NCBI GenBank assembly: GCA_021324935.1
Contig: JAJPIE010000037.1
Location: 1-64,000, forward strand
From: Acidobacteriota bacterium
GTDB lineage: Bacteria; Acidobacteriota; Terriglobia; Acidiferrales; UBA7541
Reading direction: 5' to 3'
Length of the DNA stretch: 64,000 nucleotides
In this document: piece after piece, positions 23,791-55,848 of the stretch
Layout: each line of letters starts with the position of its first letter
Numbering within the stretch: the first letter of the stretch is position 1
Position numbers and translations under genes: made by a program
Notes under the pieces: model-generated
Seen by the model: the letters and a program-made list of their open reading frames with translations, nothing else
Database searches by the model: none
Told to the model about the DNA's origin: nothing

Positions 23791-25215
<1,425 letters not shown>

Positions 25216-25461
25216 GTCCCACAAGAAGGCAACCCCTGTGCCAAACAGGATGTATGTTTCAGGGAGACCGCAAGCCGGGAGCCTCCTGAGAGTTGCGCGG
25301 CAGGGAAGTGCCAATAAGTGGAACGCCATCAAACAGGTGGGACAATTCAGAGAAGAGCACGAGTTGTGAAGCGTGGAGAAGGGGAGGGATGAGTAGAGTT
25401 TAAGAAGCTCAGAAAGCTGTTTCCAAATCGGGCCATTGTCCCGAATTGGATGGGAAGCCAT

Positions 25462-29796: not shown

Positions 29797-30483
29797 TCAA
29801 TCGCGGGGTGTATTCGCGGCTGTGCAGCCATAGCACCAAGTGCGGACGCGACCGGTGTCCACGTGGACGAAGCCCGACCGGGGATAATAGCCCACTCCAC
29901 CCTCGTGCAGCGCTAGCGCCGCGTTGCGCAGCGTCAAGGTGCTGATGCCGGGAATGCGAATGTCGATGGCGTGCGCCCGCATGTGCAGGCTGTTTTTGGC
30001 GACGCCGGCAGAGCGCGAGCGAAGGAATTCATTACTCCACGAGGAGCGGTAACCGCAGATGATGTCGATCTCGGCGTTAGGACGCCCGACGGCGGCGGTG
30101 AGCTGCGACAGGATGTCAAACAGGCGCGGATCGTAGTGCTTTACATCGCCGGTGCGATGGTCGCGCAGGAAGTGGTCAAGCTGAGCTTCGGCTTCGGGGA
30201 GAAATGTGTCGCCGTGGCGATAGACGATATCGATGTGTTCGCCGGTGTGCGTGTGAAAAAGACGCAGATGTTGATCGAGTGTGTGGTCAGGCTCGACGGC
30301 GAAGCTGGTTGAGTTGAATGCGATTGCGTATACAAGGCAGAACGCGAAAACAAAAACAAAGGCCACCACAGAAATGCGCAAGCAGCACCCTCCACTTTTT
30401 ATTTGGATGGCTCGCGGTCCCGGCGTGGTTTGCTGGGAGATGCGGGCGAAATTGAGATAGGAACGCAACCAAATGGGCGGCAA
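29797..30483 (-). CDS. DUF882/YcbK (MepK-like) zinc peptidase, M15 superfamily
   Basis: ICGYRSSWSNEFLRSRSAGVAKNSLHMRAHAIDIRIPG...SGFVHVDTGRVRTW. Confidence 0.88.
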   Translation of the reverse strand: MPPIWLRSYLNFARISQQTTPGPRAIQIKSGGCCLRISVVAFVFVFAFCLVYAIAFNSTSFAVEPDHTLDQHLRLFHTHTGEHIDIVYRHGDTFLPEAEAQLDHFLRDHRTGDVKHYDPRLFDILSQLTAAVGRPNAEIDIICGYRSSWSNEFLRSRSAGVAKNSLHMRAHAIDIRIPGISTLTLRNAALALHEGGVGYYPRSGFVHVDTGRVRTWCYGCTAANTPRD

Positions 30484-30512
30484 AGAGCGTTGAATTTTTC
30501 ATCGGAAATTTG

Positions 30513-30529
30513 TGTGATTTTCCATCACA
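30513..30529. promoter_or_regulatory. Palindrome TGTGAT-TTTCC-ATCACA, candidate upstream activator site
   Basis: 6-bp perfect arms; matches 34203..34219 in arms, spacer length and position relative to the promoter. Confidence 0.6.
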
Positions 30530-30663
30530 TTTGGGGTAAATCACGCAGAATTCAGGAAGGAGGGTGGGGTAAACTTGCGCATTGAGCCCGGTTTGGCTTG
30601 CAGTAAGGCTTGTATATTGAAAAGGTTGCAGGTGACTTGAGAAGGGCTCAGAGGCTGCCTCAG

Positions 30664-30681
30664 TTCGGCACAGCAGGTGCA
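30664..30681 (+). promoter_or_regulatory. Candidate sigma-54 (-24/-12) promoter TTCGGCACAGCAGGTGCA
   Basis: GG-N10-GC spacing with GGCAC and TGCA elements; 15/18 identical to 34351..34368. Confidence 0.6.
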
Positions 30682-30802
30682 AACAGAGACAGTGCGTTTT
30701 GGTACTCCAGAATCCGACAACGGCGAAAGGTTCGGCCTGTGCCCCTATGAAAAGCGGAGTCGGATTCAGAAAGCCGCTAGGCGGCGCTAGTCCGCAGCGA
30801 GA

Positions 30803-31003
30803 ATGGGTATGACGGTGAAATCATCGAATCGCTCCCACCGAATTCTTTACATGATTATGTTGCTTGGATTCGCCGTGGCACTGACCACTGCGCTGGTGCT
30901 GGCGGTCGAGCGGAGCCCCGAAGAAATGAAGTCGAGTACCCTACAGTCAAACACCGTCCCCGCGTTGCGTTCCGTTTGCCTGTGGGGGAACCGCAATGCG
31001 TAG
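30803..31003 (+). CDS. Small single-TM protein, leader gene of cytochrome operon
   Basis: 66 aa ORF, one hydrophobic helix YMIMLLGFAVALTTALVLAV; stop overlaps the downstream start by 8 bp. Confidence 0.5.
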   Translation: MGMTVKSSNRSHRILYMIMLLGFAVALTTALVLAVERSPEEMKSSTLQSNTVPALRSVCLWGNRNA

Positions 31004-32441
31004 GACCGTAAATCCCTCCGGAAAATTTGGCGAAATCGCTCTGGGAATTCCGGCGCTCGTCCTGATGCTGGTGCTGCCGGTGCGCGCGGACATCCATCCG
31101 GTTCCCCTGGACAAAAACACCGATGCGGCAAAGTGCCTGGAATGCCACGGCGACAAGGCACAGGGAAAACACGTGCACACGGCGATTTCGACAGGCTGCC
31201 TGAGCTGCCACGAGATCCGCGTGAATCGCGATGTGACGCGCGTGAAGCTGATCACCACTTCACCCGCCTCACTCTGCTTCACTTGCCATGCGGACAAGAA
31301 CCCCGCGGACATCAAAGGCGTGGTGCATGCTCCGGCGCGGCGCGATTGCCTGAAGTGCCACGATCCGCACGAGTCCGACAACGAATTTCAATTGCTGAAG
31401 GCGCCGGAAGGGGATCAGAAGACAAACCTGTGCCTGGAATGCCATAACATCGGCGTGAATGTGCCGGAAAAGGGCAGCCGGCACGCGGCGCTGGATATGG
31501 GTTGCGAGACCTGCCACAAGACCCATAAGACGGGCGAAAAGGAGAACCAGGAGTTTGATTATCACCTGACGAAGCCGACGCCCGCGCTGTGCATCGATTG
31601 CCACGATCCGAAGGACGAAGCTTTACAGAAGGCACACCAGAACCAGCCCTTCGGCACGGCGAATTGCATCGAGTGCCACGATCCGCACCAATCGGCACTG
31701 CCGAAGCTGATGGCGAAATACGTTCACCCGCCGTTTGCGGACAAGCAGTGCGAAGTATGCCACGAGCCGGCGAAAGACGGAAAAGTGGTGTTGACGCAGC
31801 CCGACGCGAAATCGCTCTGCGTGATGTGCCACGACGAAAAAGCAAAAGCGATCGAGAGCGCCAAGGTGCAGCATCCGGGCGCGGCCGGGGATTGCACGGA
31901 TTGCCACACTCCGCATGCCAGCAAGTACATCGCGCTGCCAAAGACCAATCCAGTGGACATCTGTCTGGGCTGCCACGCGGATATCGCCGACCTGGCGAAG
32001 AAGCCGGTGCATCACCAGCCAGCCTTCCAACAGGGCTGCGGCACGTGCCATGAACCGCACGGCGGGGAACGCGAAAAGCTGCTGCGCGCCGACGGAAACA
32101 ATCTTTGCCTGGACTGCCATGGTCCGGATTCCACGCCGCAGCAGGACAAAACCACCGGGCTCTACAAGATATTCAACGGCAAGGTCAGTCTGCCCGACGA
32201 CTACTTCACGAAGAACAAGGTGCCCATTCTGCCGCTGCGCTATGGGAAAGGTCACCCGGTGATGGGTCATCCGGTTTCGGACGTTCCCGATCCGACCGAC
32301 CCCTCCAAGGTCTTCGCCAAAATCAGCTGCCTGACGTGCCACCAGCCGCACAGTTCGGCGTATCCCAATCTGATTGCCAAAGATCAGCAGAACAATACGC
32401 AGTTTTGCGCCACGTGCCACAAGGACCTGACCAAGCGATAG
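30996..32441 (+). CDS. Multiheme c-type cytochrome, 16 CxxCH motifs
   Basis: Signal peptide; 16 CxxCH counted by eye (CLECH, CLSCH, CFTCH ... CLTCH, CATCH). Confidence 0.95.
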   Translation: MRRTVNPSGKFGEIALGIPALVLMLVLPVRADIHPVPLDKNTDAAKCLECHGDKAQGKHVHTAISTGCLSCHEIRVNRDVTRVKLITTSPASLCFTCHADKNPADIKGVVHAPARRDCLKCHDPHESDNEFQLLKAPEGDQKTNLCLECHNIGVNVPEKGSRHAALDMGCETCHKTHKTGEKENQEFDYHLTKPTPALCIDCHDPKDEALQKAHQNQPFGTANCIECHDPHQSALPKLMAKYVHPPFADKQCEVCHEPAKDGKVVLTQPDAKSLCVMCHDEKAKAIESAKVQHPGAAGDCTDCHTPHASKYIALPKTNPVDICLGCHADIADLAKKPVHHQPAFQQGCGTCHEPHGGEREKLLRADGNNLCLDCHGPDSTPQQDKTTGLYKIFNGKVSLPDDYFTKNKVPILPLRYGKGHPVMGHPVSDVPDPTDPSKVFAKISCLTCHQPHSSAYPNLIAKDQQNNTQFCATCHKDLTKR

Positions 32442-32467
32442 AGTGAATTTTCCGGGGAGAGACCGCC

Positions 32468-33745
32468 ATGTGCAAAATCGTTATAAGCCGAGATTTTTCG
32501 AAGCGGGCAGCGAGCTTGCTTGCCGTCCTTGCCCTGCTGGCGTCGCTGGTTCCCGGGGCGCTCGAAGCGAACGACAAGAAGAAAAAAAAGAGCAAGGAAG
32601 AAGAGCAGGCTGAGATTGCCGCGAAAATCAAGGCAATCGATTACTCTTTTATTGTGTGGCCCAACCCGCCAGCCGTCGCGCGCATCCGGTACACGAACTG
32701 GTACTCCTCCGATAAGGAAAAGCGAAATGTCCAGGGAAAGGTCCAGAAGAAGAATTCCTGGATGGACCGGCTCGCTGGGACGCAAACCGGCGACGAAGTC
32801 TTCAGCATGCCGTTCCAACTGGTCCAGCCTTATGGGATCGCCGTCGATTCGAAGGGCAACGCCTATGTGGCGGACTCCAAGGTGGGAGCCATCTTCATCT
32901 TCAATACGGATACGCGCGAGGTGCAACTGATCAAGAACGGGTCCGACGCGCATTTCGTGCGTATCATCGGCTTGGCCATGGACGATGACGACCGGTTGTT
33001 CGTGTCCGATCCCGGCCTGCGCCACGTGCTGGTCTTCAATAAGGACCACAAGGCACAGGACGTGATCACCGAAGGAATGGCGGAGCCAGGAGACCTGGCG
33101 ATTGACACGCAAAACAGGCTGCTCTACGTGTCCGACGTGACGCTCGATCAGGTATTGGTTTACGACGCGGATACCCTGAAGCCGGTGCGGAAAATCGGCA
33201 CGACGGGGCATAAGCACTCGCTAACAAGCCCTGGCGATTTCGCGCGCCCGAGCGGACTGGCAGTGGACCGCGAGGGAAATCTTTACGTGGCGGATACCCT
33301 GAACAATCGCATCGAGATCTTCGATCCCGACGGCAATTTCATCAGTGCGTTCGGAAAGAGCGGAGACGGTCCTGGTTACTTTTCGAGGCCCAAGGGCGTG
33401 GCCATCGACAGCGACGGCCACCTCTGGGTCGCCGACGGAATGCAAGACCGCGTGCAGGTATTTTCGAAAGACGGCAGTCAGTTGATGATTTCATTTGGCG
33501 GGCACGGGTTGCTGCCGGGTCAGTTCCAGGGGCTGGTGAATATTGTGATCGATAAGCAGGACCGTGTGTTCACCACGGAGATTTATCCCGGGCGCTTGCA
33601 GCAGATGCAGTACGTCACGGATGCGCAGGCAGAAAAGGAACGCGAGCGGCGCGAGAAAGAGCGTGCGAAGCAAACCGCGGAGCGCCACGCCCCTGCGTCA
33701 CAGCCGGAAGCCGCGCCCGCAGCGGTGCCAAACGCCAAGCCATAG
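32468..33745 (+). CDS. NHL-repeat beta-propeller protein, secreted
   Basis: Repeats PYGIAVDSKGNAYVADS, PSGLAVDREGNLYVADTLNNRIEIFDPDGNFI, PKGVAIDSDGHLWVADGMQDRVQVF. Confidence 0.9.
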   Translation: MCKIVISRDFSKRAASLLAVLALLASLVPGALEANDKKKKKSKEEEQAEIAAKIKAIDYSFIVWPNPPAVARIRYTNWYSSDKEKRNVQGKVQKKNSWMDRLAGTQTGDEVFSMPFQLVQPYGIAVDSKGNAYVADSKVGAIFIFNTDTREVQLIKNGSDAHFVRIIGLAMDDDDRLFVSDPGLRHVLVFNKDHKAQDVITEGMAEPGDLAIDTQNRLLYVSDVTLDQVLVYDADTLKPVRKIGTTGHKHSLTSPGDFARPSGLAVDREGNLYVADTLNNRIEIFDPDGNFISAFGKSGDGPGYFSRPKGVAIDSDGHLWVADGMQDRVQVFSKDGSQLMISFGGHGLLPGQFQGLVNIVIDKQDRVFTTEIYPGRLQQMQYVTDAQAEKERERREKERAKQTAERHAPASQPEAAPAAVPNAKP

Positions 33746-33842
33746 CGGCAATGGGCCTTTGGCCAAGCCGGCAGCCAGAACTTGGCTGGCGGCGAGAGCA
33801 GCAACGAGAAGAGCAGAGAAGAGCCAAGAGTAAAACAGGAAG

Positions 33843-33877
33843 AGAGCGCTGGTTTGCGGCCAGCGCTCTTGTTTTTG
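33843..33877 (+). terminator. Rho-independent terminator closing the 16-heme/NHL transcript
   Basis: AGAGCGCTGG-tttgcgg-CCAGCGCTCT followed by TGTTTTT. Confidence 0.88.
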
Positions 33878-34202
33878 CGGCGAAGCTTTCCTTTCCGGCT
33901 GTCCCCGTTATTGAACGAAGACATCAAACAATGCCGTGGCGCTGAGACTCTCGCGCCCGCAGGAGGGCGGATCTCCGTACGGCAAAGGAAAACAAGACGA
34001 GTGCATGCATGGATTCGCAGAGGGAATCGGTGCGAAGTCGAGGGACATCGTGCATGTCTCGCCGTCAAAAAAATTTGCGGGCAGCAAAGAAATGCTGCGG
34101 TGAATCGCAGCAATGCCGCGGCATCGTGCGCGCGGATGTGTGCGTGAACGTGTGGCTGTGATGTGCAACACACAAAAGGGTTTATCCGTTCAACACAAAC
34201 TG

Positions 34203-34219
34203 TGTGATTGCTCATCACA
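34203..34219. promoter_or_regulatory. Palindrome TGTGAT-TGCTC-ATCACA, candidate upstream activator site
   Basis: Same arms and spacer length as 30513..30529; extended 40-bp alignment about 28/40 identical. Confidence 0.6.
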
Positions 34220-34350
34220 ACTGAGCCATATCGCGCAAACGAGCCGAGGTGGGGCAATTTTGGCAGCCCTTGCCGAAGGGGACTAGTACCGCAACGGATA
34301 GAAAATTAAACACTTACGGCAAGTCTTAGGAAACGCCGATTTTGTGCCGG

Positions 34351-34368
34351 TTCGGCATAACAGATGCA
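34351..34368 (+). promoter_or_regulatory. Candidate sigma-54 (-24/-12) promoter TTCGGCATAACAGATGCA
   Basis: GG-N10-GC spacing; 15/18 identical to 30664..30681. Confidence 0.6.
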
Positions 34369-34466
34369 CTTTGGGACAACGCAGGCCGGCCCGCTCCAGG
34401 CTCTGGCCATTTACGAAGTGGAAACTTAAGTTCCGTCTCGCAACACACATGGAGGTTTCACAAGTT

Positions 34467-35384
34467 ATGAAAAAGGCGATCTTAGTAGCGCTTTTTGGAC
34501 TGGCCAGCGCCGGATTGGCATTCGGCCAGAACGCGACATCCACGGTCGACGTCCTCGGAGCTCACAATAACCAGGGCCGCGGCTGCGCGGGATGCCACTC
34601 ACCGCACAGCGGCTCGTTCGGTTCGGGCCATGGCGGCGCGGCGGATGCCGGCTCCTATGCATTGTGGGGCCAGGATGCCAGCCCACTCTACGGCAAGACC
34701 CTCGCATTCGGCGACGGCGGCTCGTACGTAGAAGTTCTGCCCAGCACCATCGCCACGGGTTCGCAGGAAGTTGGCGGCATTCTCCTCTGCCTCAGCTGCC
34801 ATGACGGCAACGTGACCCCGACCAACATGATGACCAAGCAGTCCTACGAACAAAAGATCGGTTTGTTGACGAACGTAGCGTATGGCAGCCAGCCGATTCC
34901 GACGCTGCTCGGCAACGACGGCACGACCACCGGCAATTACACCAACGACCACCCGGTGGGCCAGAATGCAACGATTCGCGCGGGCAACGGCCTGGTGTGG
35001 GCCAACAATACCTTTACCGTGACCGCAGGCTCGCCCTATGCCCAGTTCGTAGCCAACTACGGCTGGCCCGCATTGGCTCCTGGAAAGTGGAGCAGCCCCT
35101 ACGCCGTCAATGGCGCCGGACAGGCCTATGTCCTCTGCACCACCTGCCACAACCAGCACGTTATGACCGTGTACACCTCCTCCGCGAATAGCCCGATCGC
35201 GGGCGACGGCGGCGGAAAGTATTACAACACGTTCTTCTTCGTGAACGGCCCGTACAACCCGAACATCACGCCCGACCCGACCGGCAAGACGGCTCCTTCG
35301 ACCACCCAGTTCTGCCGCCAGTGCCACTTCGGCGAAGCGAACGAAGCCAACAACACCAACACCATCACGACGCAATTCCAGTAG
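34467..35384 (+). CDS. Tetraheme cytochrome (cytochrome c3 family; OmcE-like candidate)
   Basis: Start MKKAILVALFGLASAGLAFG with GGAGG RBS; four CxxCH: CAGCHSPHSG, CLSCHDG, CTTCHNQH, CRQCHFG; NDHPVG motif. Confidence 0.88.
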   Translation: MKKAILVALFGLASAGLAFGQNATSTVDVLGAHNNQGRGCAGCHSPHSGSFGSGHGGAADAGSYALWGQDASPLYGKTLAFGDGGSYVEVLPSTIATGSQEVGGILLCLSCHDGNVTPTNMMTKQSYEQKIGLLTNVAYGSQPIPTLLGNDGTTTGNYTNDHPVGQNATIRAGNGLVWANNTFTVTAGSPYAQFVANYGWPALAPGKWSSPYAVNGAGQAYVLCTTCHNQHVMTVYTSSANSPIAGDGGGKYYNTFFFVNGPYNPNITPDPTGKTAPSTTQFCRQCHFGEANEANNTNTITTQFQ

Positions 35385-35457: not shown

Positions 35458-36477
35458 ATGAGGTACCTGGTAGTTTTCGCTCTACTACTAGCGGCGGCGA
35501 CCAACGCAAGTTCTCAAGTTTCCTCCCACGCACCGACGGCTCTTGCAACGGCCAATACTCCTTCCAGCTCGGCCTTCAACGTCAGCGACAAACCGGTAGC
35601 CAAAGTGAACGGGGCGATTCTGACCGACCGCGACTTGCTGCGCGAAATGCTGCAGATTTTTCCTTACGCCAGCCAGCACAACGGATTTCCGAAAGAGCAA
35701 GAGGCATCCATCCGGCAGGGCGCCCTGCAGATGATTATCTTCGAGGAACTGGTGTACCAAGAGGCGATGCGGCGCAAGCTGACGGTCTCGCCGCAAGCGT
35801 TGAAGCAGTCCGAGCTCGAGTTCAAGAAGCAATTTCATTCCGCTCAGGAATACCAGCAGTATCTGGTGACCGAGATGGGCGGCTCGGAACAGAACGTTAT
35901 CGGCAAGATCAAGAGGTCGCTGCTGATCGAAAAGGTATTGAAAAGCGATGTGCAGGACAAGTCCGAGGTAACGCCGGCCGAAGTGCGGGCCTACTACGAC
36001 AAGAATCCGGGCAAGTTTCGCGTTGCGGAATCCTATAGCTTTCAATCGATTTCCATTCTGCCGCCGCTGCATCCGACGCCGGACCAGCAGAAAGAAGCGG
36101 CCAAGCGAGCGAACGACTACCTGAAACAGGCGCAAGCGGCCAAGACGTACCAGGATTTCGGATTGTTGGCGGAAAAGATTTCCGAGGACGATTTCCGCGT
36201 GAACATGGGCGATCACCATTCGGTGAGCAAGGAGCAGCTCCCGCCGCAGGTGGGGAAAGCGCTTTCGAGCATGAAGCCCGGCACGATCAGCGGGCTGATC
36301 CCGATCGAATCGGCGTACACCATCGTGCGGTTGAACGCGCACACGCCGGCCGGAAAACAGAGCTTTGAATCCGTCAAGGCTGGCCTGCGGACGCAATTGC
36401 AGCAGGCCAAATACGAAAGCCTTCGCGCGGGACTCGACAAGGCCCTCAGGGCCAAAGCCCAGGTCCAGATCCTGTAG
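35458..36477 (+). CDS. Periplasmic peptidyl-prolyl cis-trans isomerase (SurA/PrsA/parvulin type)
   Basis: SurA_N-like VAKVNGAILTDRDLLREM and parvulin-like region SYSFQSISILPP...PPQVGKALSSMKPGTISGLIPIESAYTIVRL; signal peptide. Confidence 0.85.
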   Translation: MRYLVVFALLLAAATNASSQVSSHAPTALATANTPSSSAFNVSDKPVAKVNGAILTDRDLLREMLQIFPYASQHNGFPKEQEASIRQGALQMIIFEELVYQEAMRRKLTVSPQALKQSELEFKKQFHSAQEYQQYLVTEMGGSEQNVIGKIKRSLLIEKVLKSDVQDKSEVTPAEVRAYYDKNPGKFRVAESYSFQSISILPPLHPTPDQQKEAAKRANDYLKQAQAAKTYQDFGLLAEKISEDDFRVNMGDHHSVSKEQLPPQVGKALSSMKPGTISGLIPIESAYTIVRLNAHTPAGKQSFESVKAGLRTQLQQAKYESLRAGLDKALRAKAQVQIL

Positions 36478-54930: not shown

Positions 54931-55596
54931 TTACTTCTTCGAGGCCGCCTTTTGTTGCGCCTCGGCGATCATTTGCTCCACGATCGGCTTGCGATCCAGA
55001 TCGGGATGCGATTTCAATAGCTGCTGCCAGGTGGCGACAGCGCGGGCGGGATCGTCCTTGCCCTGATATTCAATCATCCCCAGATTAAAGAGCGCGTTGA
55101 CATCGTTGGGCTTGTCTTTCAAGGCTTGCTGCAATTGATGGAGTGCGCCATCCACATCGCCGGAGTAATAGAGGCTGGAGGCAAGTTCCGTGCGCGTGGT
55201 GACATTCTTGGGATCCGCTTCCAGCGACTTCGTGTAGTAGCTCGCGGCGTCTTTGAATTGATGGGTGCTTTGATAAAGCGCCGCCACATGCGCGAGCAGC
55301 TTGGGATCTTTGGGCTTGGTTTTTAGCGCTTCCAGAAGCGGCGCGGCTTTTACGTCCGCCATCGCTTTCATCTGCTCCATGGTTGGCTTGGGATGTCCTC
55401 CGGGGGGCATTCCCATGCTACCGGCAGCCCCCGCCGCGCGCGCCGGTGCTGCTGGCGGCTCGGCCTTGGGGCCAAGCAAGAAATACCCGAGAATGAGCCC
55501 GAATAGCAGAGCGGCCCCTGCGAGTGGATAGACCTGCGCATTTGGCAGGCCCGTTGCAGCGGATGGAACCGCTCCTGTTGAGGAATCGCTCACCAT
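54931..55596 (-). CDS. TM-anchored TPR protein (CcmH/NrfG-like)
   Basis: N-terminal TM, tandem TPRs (VTTRTELASSLYYSGDVDGALHQLQQALKDKPNDVNALFNLG). Confidence 0.82.
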   Translation of the reverse strand: MVSDSSTGAVPSAATGLPNAQVYPLAGAALLFGLILGYFLLGPKAEPPAAPARAAGAAGSMGMPPGGHPKPTMEQMKAMADVKAAPLLEALKTKPKDPKLLAHVAALYQSTHQFKDAASYYTKSLEADPKNVTTRTELASSLYYSGDVDGALHQLQQALKDKPNDVNALFNLGMIEYQGKDDPARAVATWQQLLKSHPDLDRKPIVEQMIAEAQQKAASKK

Positions 55597-55821
55597 GGAT
55601 GGATGGCTCCTTTATGCCGTGCGCGGAGCAAGCCTATCTTCTTCCCCCGAGCCGGCAAAGCCCACCTCGCGGCACTTCTAAGCCCCTGTAAGACTAGAAT
55701 AACAAAGGCGTTATCGGATATCTCGGGGGCATGGACGGTGGCTGGCGGAAAGCCTTCCCCGGACGTCCCCCGTACATTTTATAAAATATCGGTTCGGGCT
55801 CACGTTGGTCCGCGTCGTTTG

Positions 55822-55848
55822 TCACAGCGTTTTGTGACCTTCGTCACA
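55822..55848. promoter_or_regulatory. Three phased TCACA/TGTGA half-sites including TGTGA-CCTTCG-TCACA (CRP/FNR-type palindrome)
   Basis: Half-sites start at 55822, 55833 and 55844, i.e. 11-bp phasing; lies between divergent genes. Confidence 0.6.

Follow-up and report, generated by a model that had tools for sequence, protein, structure and literature searches.

RpoN is an essential regulator in Geobacter sulfurreducens, where it is linked to the pili and cytochromes of Fe(III) reduction (PMC2725144), and integration host factor (IHF) affects extracellular electron transfer in the same organism (PMC7962754). IHF bends the DNA between an activator and an RpoN promoter, with a separation that is usually 100 to 140 bp (PMC7962754). 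For the control of such multiheme cytochromes in Acidobacteriota, a literature search of limited scope returned no paper. Here we describe a 64,000-nucleotide stretch from an Acidobacteriota bacterium of the class Terriglobia (contig JAJPIE010000037.1, positions 1 to 64,000, of a genome that resembles a metagenome assembly; the window in what follows), in which a 16-heme and a tetraheme c-type cytochrome are encoded in two operons. Comparison with related genomes makes it very probable that both operons lie under one conserved module of sigma-54-type promoter, IHF site, and enhancer.

The tetraheme gene lies beyond a strong intrinsic terminator (Table 1) and therefore belongs to a separate transcript, for which a second promoter is required. 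A first-pass annotation of the window had proposed that one sigma-54-type module is common to the two cytochrome transcripts, and this is supported by the conservation of its elements and their spacing in relatives. Both copies of the palindrome TGTGAT-N5-ATCACA are exact (TGTGATTTTCCATCACA and TGTGATTGCTCATCACA) and are the only perfect matches in the 4.5-Mb genome, for which all genome-wide statistics are pattern searches; with one mismatch, the palindrome occurs at three unrelated loci without cytochrome genes. The centers of the two copies precede the GG of an 18-mer by 146 and 143 bp, as had been reported. Both 18-mers carry GG-N10-GC, retain the consensus GGCA and TGCA, and have C at −26, the last also in agreement with the annotation, and the genome holds no further copy at one mismatch or fewer. 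A GGTGGGGYAA element (GGTGGGGYAANNTTG) recurs between palindrome and 18-mer at both operons, with 0.14 matches expected per window; relatives have no clear counterpart at the equivalent position. The likeness of the 18-mers is by itself only modestly improbable, shuffles reaching 15/18 in 13 of 500 cases, so related genomes were needed to settle the question. What gives the observation its strength is the palindrome, together with conservation in relatives, rather than 18-mer similarity.

A search with the NHL-repeat protein gave 47 loci, mostly with 16-heme and tetraheme genes adjoining. An upstream motif, TGnGKnATTTCACCR, precedes both genes in relatives, and before the 16-heme gene it is usually followed by TGTGGGAGAARGCCCA at ATTT+15 or ATTT+16. 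Scanning the wider relatives for the promoter element located it before the tetraheme gene, for example as TTTCGGACAGCCAGTTGCATTA, a GG-N10-GC with TTGCA. The distance from ATTT to GG is mostly 146 to 153 bp at both genes, inside the 80 to 200 bp expected of an EBP enhancer (EBP, enhancer-binding protein). Of 49 regions, 38 have GG-N10-GC at 144 to 154 bp from the enhancer core, and shuffling predicts 3.3; other GG/GC spacings from N4 to N15 were found in 0 to 9 regions each and N16 in 16, all of these being counts over sequences that share ancestry and so not independent events. The IHF consensus WATCARNNNNTTR, as quoted in PMC7962754, was matched at 8 or more of 9 positions in 20 of 40 relatives' regions (2.5 expected), mostly starting 49 to 53 bp before the GG. 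Mean pairwise identity was 0.28 in the linkers, which is near random, and 0.54 at the −24/−12 stretch, a value partly inflated by the anchoring pattern; with linkers at random identity, the conserved blocks are not explained by relatedness alone. A lack of conservation in related genomes was one of the outcomes that the first-pass annotation had named as speaking against its proposal, and conservation is what was found. Its suggestion of a local duplication is not borne out as a recent event: the module stands at both operons in ten relatives, so both promoters are old.

An out-of-sample search used the enhancer-pair pattern alone, with the promoter part excluded, against 399 genomes. It returned three matches, every one upstream of this 16-heme gene, so that a blind search recovered the gene in three additional genomes. 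In two of them GG-N10-TGCA follows, at +149 bp in one and +150 bp in the other; in the third, GGCGAGGTTCGTGCT (GG-N10-GCT, by inspection) occupies the equivalent place.

The window modules fit this arrangement at the left half of the enhancer, where TGTGTGATTT (30511-30520) and TGTGTGATT (34201-34209) agree with the invariant half of the relatives; the core lies 150 bp (ATTT, 16-heme operon) and 147 bp (ATT, tetraheme operon) from the GG. rpoN is present in all 61 genomes considered, the window genome (PF04552, E value of 7e-59) and 60 relatives. Genes for sigma-54 activators (enhancer-binding proteins [EBPs]) give 12 to 37 matches per cluster-bearing related genome, and the window itself encodes one at 23791-25461. 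Three HU/IHF-family proteins are encoded in the window genome, two of which score best against IHF models but under the model cut-offs. The promoter-like pattern TGGCAN6TTGCW is enriched in the genome, with 21 matches against 4 in reversed controls.

From the sequence we infer binding, looping, start sites, and a shared activator, as follows. Both operons would be transcribed from sigma-54-type promoters; an EBP would bind the enhancer pair centered about 150 bp upstream of the GG, IHF or another protein of the HU/IHF family would bend the DNA about 51 bp before the GG, and the looped activator would remodel RpoN polymerase on GG-N10-GC, with the predicted starts given in Table 1. Since the same enhancer stands at both operons, a single activator would control both transcripts jointly, turning on the 16-heme/NHL and tetraheme/isomerase transcripts together despite the terminator. 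Such a module names a sigma factor, promoter base pairs, an enhancer, and a bending site, which makes the control of these cytochromes testable, and it ties the two operons into one regulon.

The 17-bp palindrome is limited to the window genome and two close relatives of the same genus, G035, where it is perfect, and G034, where it has one mismatch. In both relatives it is located upstream of the 16-heme gene, in the gene order PilZ, EBP, M50 protease, ADH, 16-heme, NHL, tetraheme, isomerase, and second NHL. The G034 mismatch (AGTGAT) breaks the palindrome and leaves the TG-n-G of the enhancer intact; G035 has a site B, TGAGGGAAAACACTCA, at ATTT+16. The palindrome was not found at the 47 loci of the NHL search, and a joint-pattern search of 399 genomes of the class gave the G034 and G035 loci plus 11 scattered matches without nearby heme genes. 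Palindrome matches in other relatives were set aside as chance-like, mostly lying within genes. The difference lies in the right half: relatives have CACC immediately after ATTT, whereas the window lineage has ATCACA further along, completing the palindrome. The left arm TGTGTGATTT is the ancestral conserved enhancer half-site, and the right arm, ATCACA, is a change specific to the window lineage. With the left half-site retained and a new right half-site gained, the activator or its binding mode has probably changed in this lineage, which would be a case of parallel change in one half of an enhancer at two promoters.

Several points weigh against the sigma-54 module. In the window, conservation does not extend to the right half-site of A or to the greater part of site B, and some orthologous loci have no recognizable module. 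In G034 and G035 the best −24/−12 copy, the promoter-like element GTTCGGCACAGGGGGTGCA, is 125 bp from the palindrome center and not about 146 bp; AGGCTTTCTTGATGCA is weakly suggested there as the promoter, as an alternative to CGGCACAGGGGGTGCA. The published sigma-54 consensus (TGGCACG-N4-TTGC) includes T at −26 (PMC2725144), a base that is typical of the consensus rather than invariant, and T was seen there in 0 of 40 relatives (C in 28, A in 11, and G in 1).

The window palindrome might instead be a CRP/FNR-superfamily operator at an ordinary sigma-70 promoter, with the GG and GC incidental. Its half-site, TGTGA/TCACA, resembles that of CRP, and a 16-bp TGTGAT-N4-ATCACA does occur upstream of the 16-heme gene in relatives, with 44 matches at two mismatches or fewer against 1.8 in shuffled sequence and with spacer 4 only; a near-match lies in the window at 34157. 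The window palindrome, however, has a spacer of 5 and occupies the enhancer position, whereas the 16-bp sites of relatives lie about 180 to 220 bp before the GG. In several relatives the 16-bp site is upstream of an opposite-strand ResB-like gene and may serve that operon. The + strand from 30300 to 34600 gave no sigma-70-like promoter, and an operator of this kind would leave the conserved GG-N10-GC and the IHF site unexplained. We therefore regard the CRP/FNR explanation as quite improbable, and position is also why we rejected a reading in which the palindrome is the relatives' CRP/FNR-type site with one base added. The first-pass annotation had separated the palindrome from CRP/FNR sites by spacer length. 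The TGTGA-N6-TCACA sites that it listed at 55833 and 62416 are present, and the two palindromes have N7 between TGTGA and TCACA; the separation stands, with enhancer position replacing spacer length as the argument for it. The relatives' CRP/FNR-type sites are distinct from the enhancer and may act on the ResB-like operon or bring in regulation by redox state or carbon. Such 16-bp palindromes are found upstream of both the 16-heme gene and an opposite-strand ResB-like gene in L057, L061, L063, L069, L086, and L087, the ResB-like (cytochrome c biogenesis) assignment being from sequence and not from a profile search.

Within the sigma-54 explanation, the neighboring EBP is an unlikely choice for the activator that binds the palindrome. 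NtrC enhancer sites are 17-bp palindromes of 6-5-6 geometry with the half-site TGCACC, a geometry shared by the window palindrome, and this EBP is of NtrC type, with receiver, AAA, and Fis-type helix-turn-helix (HTH) domains, encoded about 5.5 kb from the operon; the order EBP, M50, ADH, and cytochrome cluster is the same in G034 and G035. However, close orthologues (75 to 87%) occur in many members of the genus in which both the 16-heme gene and the palindrome are missing, and their HTH is nearly unchanged, so that a dedicated site would be expected in those genomes. Conversely, 24 relatives in which the cluster or its enhancer is present gave paralogues of 46 to 50% at best, or no match at threshold, and each cluster-bearing genome offers many other EBPs. 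The protein had been put forward for footprinting; given this distribution it is a poor candidate, and at most a lineage-specific activator. In L076, L084, and L085, genes for other EBPs lie no more than about 3 kb from the 16-heme gene, which supports sigma-54 control in general. The usual phospho-acceptor aspartate of the receiver, its position judged from alignment, is lost in the window genome, G020, G034, and G035 and retained in most orthologues of the genus; classical phosphorylation is thus probably absent, and the EBP may have left phosphorylation control. It is extremely improbable that the conserved blocks are a structured 5′ RNA in place of a sigma-54 promoter. Downstream of the tetraheme promoter, relatives do have another conserved stretch that could fold, and there are short inverted repeats overlapping the element, but Rfam at curated thresholds gave no leader or riboswitch match at the locus in the window or five relatives, folding of the predicted leaders is no better than that of shuffled sequences (z of −0.13 and 0.74), and neither a constant 146 to 153 bp across unrelated linkers nor an exact N10 spacing is expected of RNA. 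A riboswitch or leader RNA was accordingly rejected, having no Rfam family and unremarkable folding. The enhancer motif was also rejected as coding sequence, since the distance from site A to site B shifts by one base (15 or 16) among relatives.

Table 1. Positions of the control elements and genes at the two cytochrome operons and of the neighboring activator gene
Feature	Position	Strand	Details
Response-regulator-type sigma-54 activator (EBP)	23791..25461	−	Pfam Response_reg, Sigma54_activat, HTH_8; degenerate receiver; considered as activator, not favored
Enhancer site A, 16-heme operon, TGTGTGATTTTCCATCACA	30511..30529	+	Palindrome 30513-30529; ATTT core from 30517; left half fits relatives' TGnGKnATTT
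Enhancer site B-like, TGGGGTAAATCACGCA	30532..30547	+	ATTT+15; weak, ~9/16, by inspection
Recurring element, GGTGGGGTAAACTTG	30563..30577	+	Common to the two window copies only
IHF-like site, ATTGAAAAGGTTG	30616..30628	+	7/9 consensus positions; 51 bp before GG
−24/−12 element, TTCGGCACAGCAGGTGCA	30664..30681	+	GG 30667-30668; GC 30679-30680; predicted start ~30692
Small ORF, 64 aa	30809..31003	+	Membrane-type N terminus; opens 16-heme operon, overlapping cytochrome start
16-heme c-type cytochrome, 481 aa	30996..32441	+	Pfam Paired_CXXCH; 16 CXXCH
NHL-repeat beta-propeller protein	32468..33745	+	Pfam NHL
Intrinsic terminator, strong	33842..33870	+	13-pair stem and T-run, between the two transcripts
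CRP/FNR-type 16-bp site, TGTGATGTGCAACACA	34157..34172	+	One mismatch
Enhancer site A, tetraheme operon, TGTGTGATTGCTCATCACA	34201..34219	+	Palindrome 34203-34219; ATT core from 34207
Enhancer site B-like, TGAGCCATATCGCGCA	34222..34237	+	ATTT+15; weak, by inspection
Recurring element, GGTGGGGCAATTTTG	34248..34262	+	
IHF-like site, AATTAAACACTTA	34304..34316	+	8/9 consensus positions; 50 bp before GG
−24/−12 element, TTCGGCATAACAGATGCA	34351..34368	+	GG 34354-34355; GC 34366-34367; predicted start ~34379
Tetraheme c-type cytochrome, 305 aa	34467..35384	+	4 CXXCH
SurA/PpiC-type peptidyl-prolyl isomerase	35458..36477	+	

The heme counts given by the first-pass annotation agree with the CXXCH motifs of the two cytochromes. 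The small ORF at the head of the 16-heme operon is shared with G034 and G035 only and is absent from the other loci, which makes it a feature of the window lineage. Downstream of the isomerase gene lie more genes, among them a second NHL protein and a multiheme stretch. A search of solved structures with the tetraheme protein gave no match, and a nanowire-type claim is therefore not made. In relatives (L058, L061, L065, L099, and others), a conserved GC-rich leader, GAGGGGCGGCTGCG...GTGCCCAGGCAC...CGCAGCCC...GGCCTAAGCCTCTG, lies between the tetraheme promoter and its gene; it looks foldable, has no Rfam match, and is missing or altered in the window. A pilin-like gene elsewhere in the window genome is preceded by a sigma-54-like promoter, TGGCATCTTACTTGCT, in which −26 is T (G000 contig C78, 481-496, L179). 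In the window, a sigma-54-like TGGCAGGCCCGTTGCA at 55543-55558 stands directly upstream of the ORF at 55603 for an FG-GAP protein, and a bacterial small signal recognition particle RNA occupies positions 1-85 of the − strand, truncated by the window edge.

The locus resembles known sigma-54 promoters with enhancer and IHF site (nif, ntr, and pilA type) in having GG and GC ten bases apart, an enhancer about 150 bp upstream, an IHF consensus between the two, and genes for RpoN and EBPs. It differs from typical members of that group in the base at −26, which is C or A, apart from the single G noted above, and never T in the 40 relatives, in an unusually fixed enhancer distance, and in its own enhancer motif. 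The kind of promoter is thus well known; what is new is the enhancer motif, a −26 position that is never T, and a palindrome confined to one lineage. Compared with NtrC sites, the half-site length and spacing of the palindrome are equal and the half-site differs (TGTGAT against TGCACC), so the likeness does not imply NtrC identity; compared with CRP/FNR operators (TGTGA-N6-TCACA), the half-site is alike, whereas the palindrome has one extra spacer base and another position relative to the promoter. On balance, we lean toward a previously undescribed sigma-54 regulon dedicated to one extracellular-electron-transfer-type cytochrome cluster in Terriglobia. It would have an enhancer motif of its own, promoters of a subclass that lacks T at −26, and a constant distance between enhancer and promoter; one lineage would have turned an enhancer half-site into a palindrome at two operons that terminate separately, and this would reflect a new activator or an altered activator specificity. 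The parallel with G. sulfurreducens is that sigma-54 and IHF are tied to the expression of multiheme cytochromes; phylum, cytochrome cluster, and enhancer are different, and here the link is drawn from sequence conservation.

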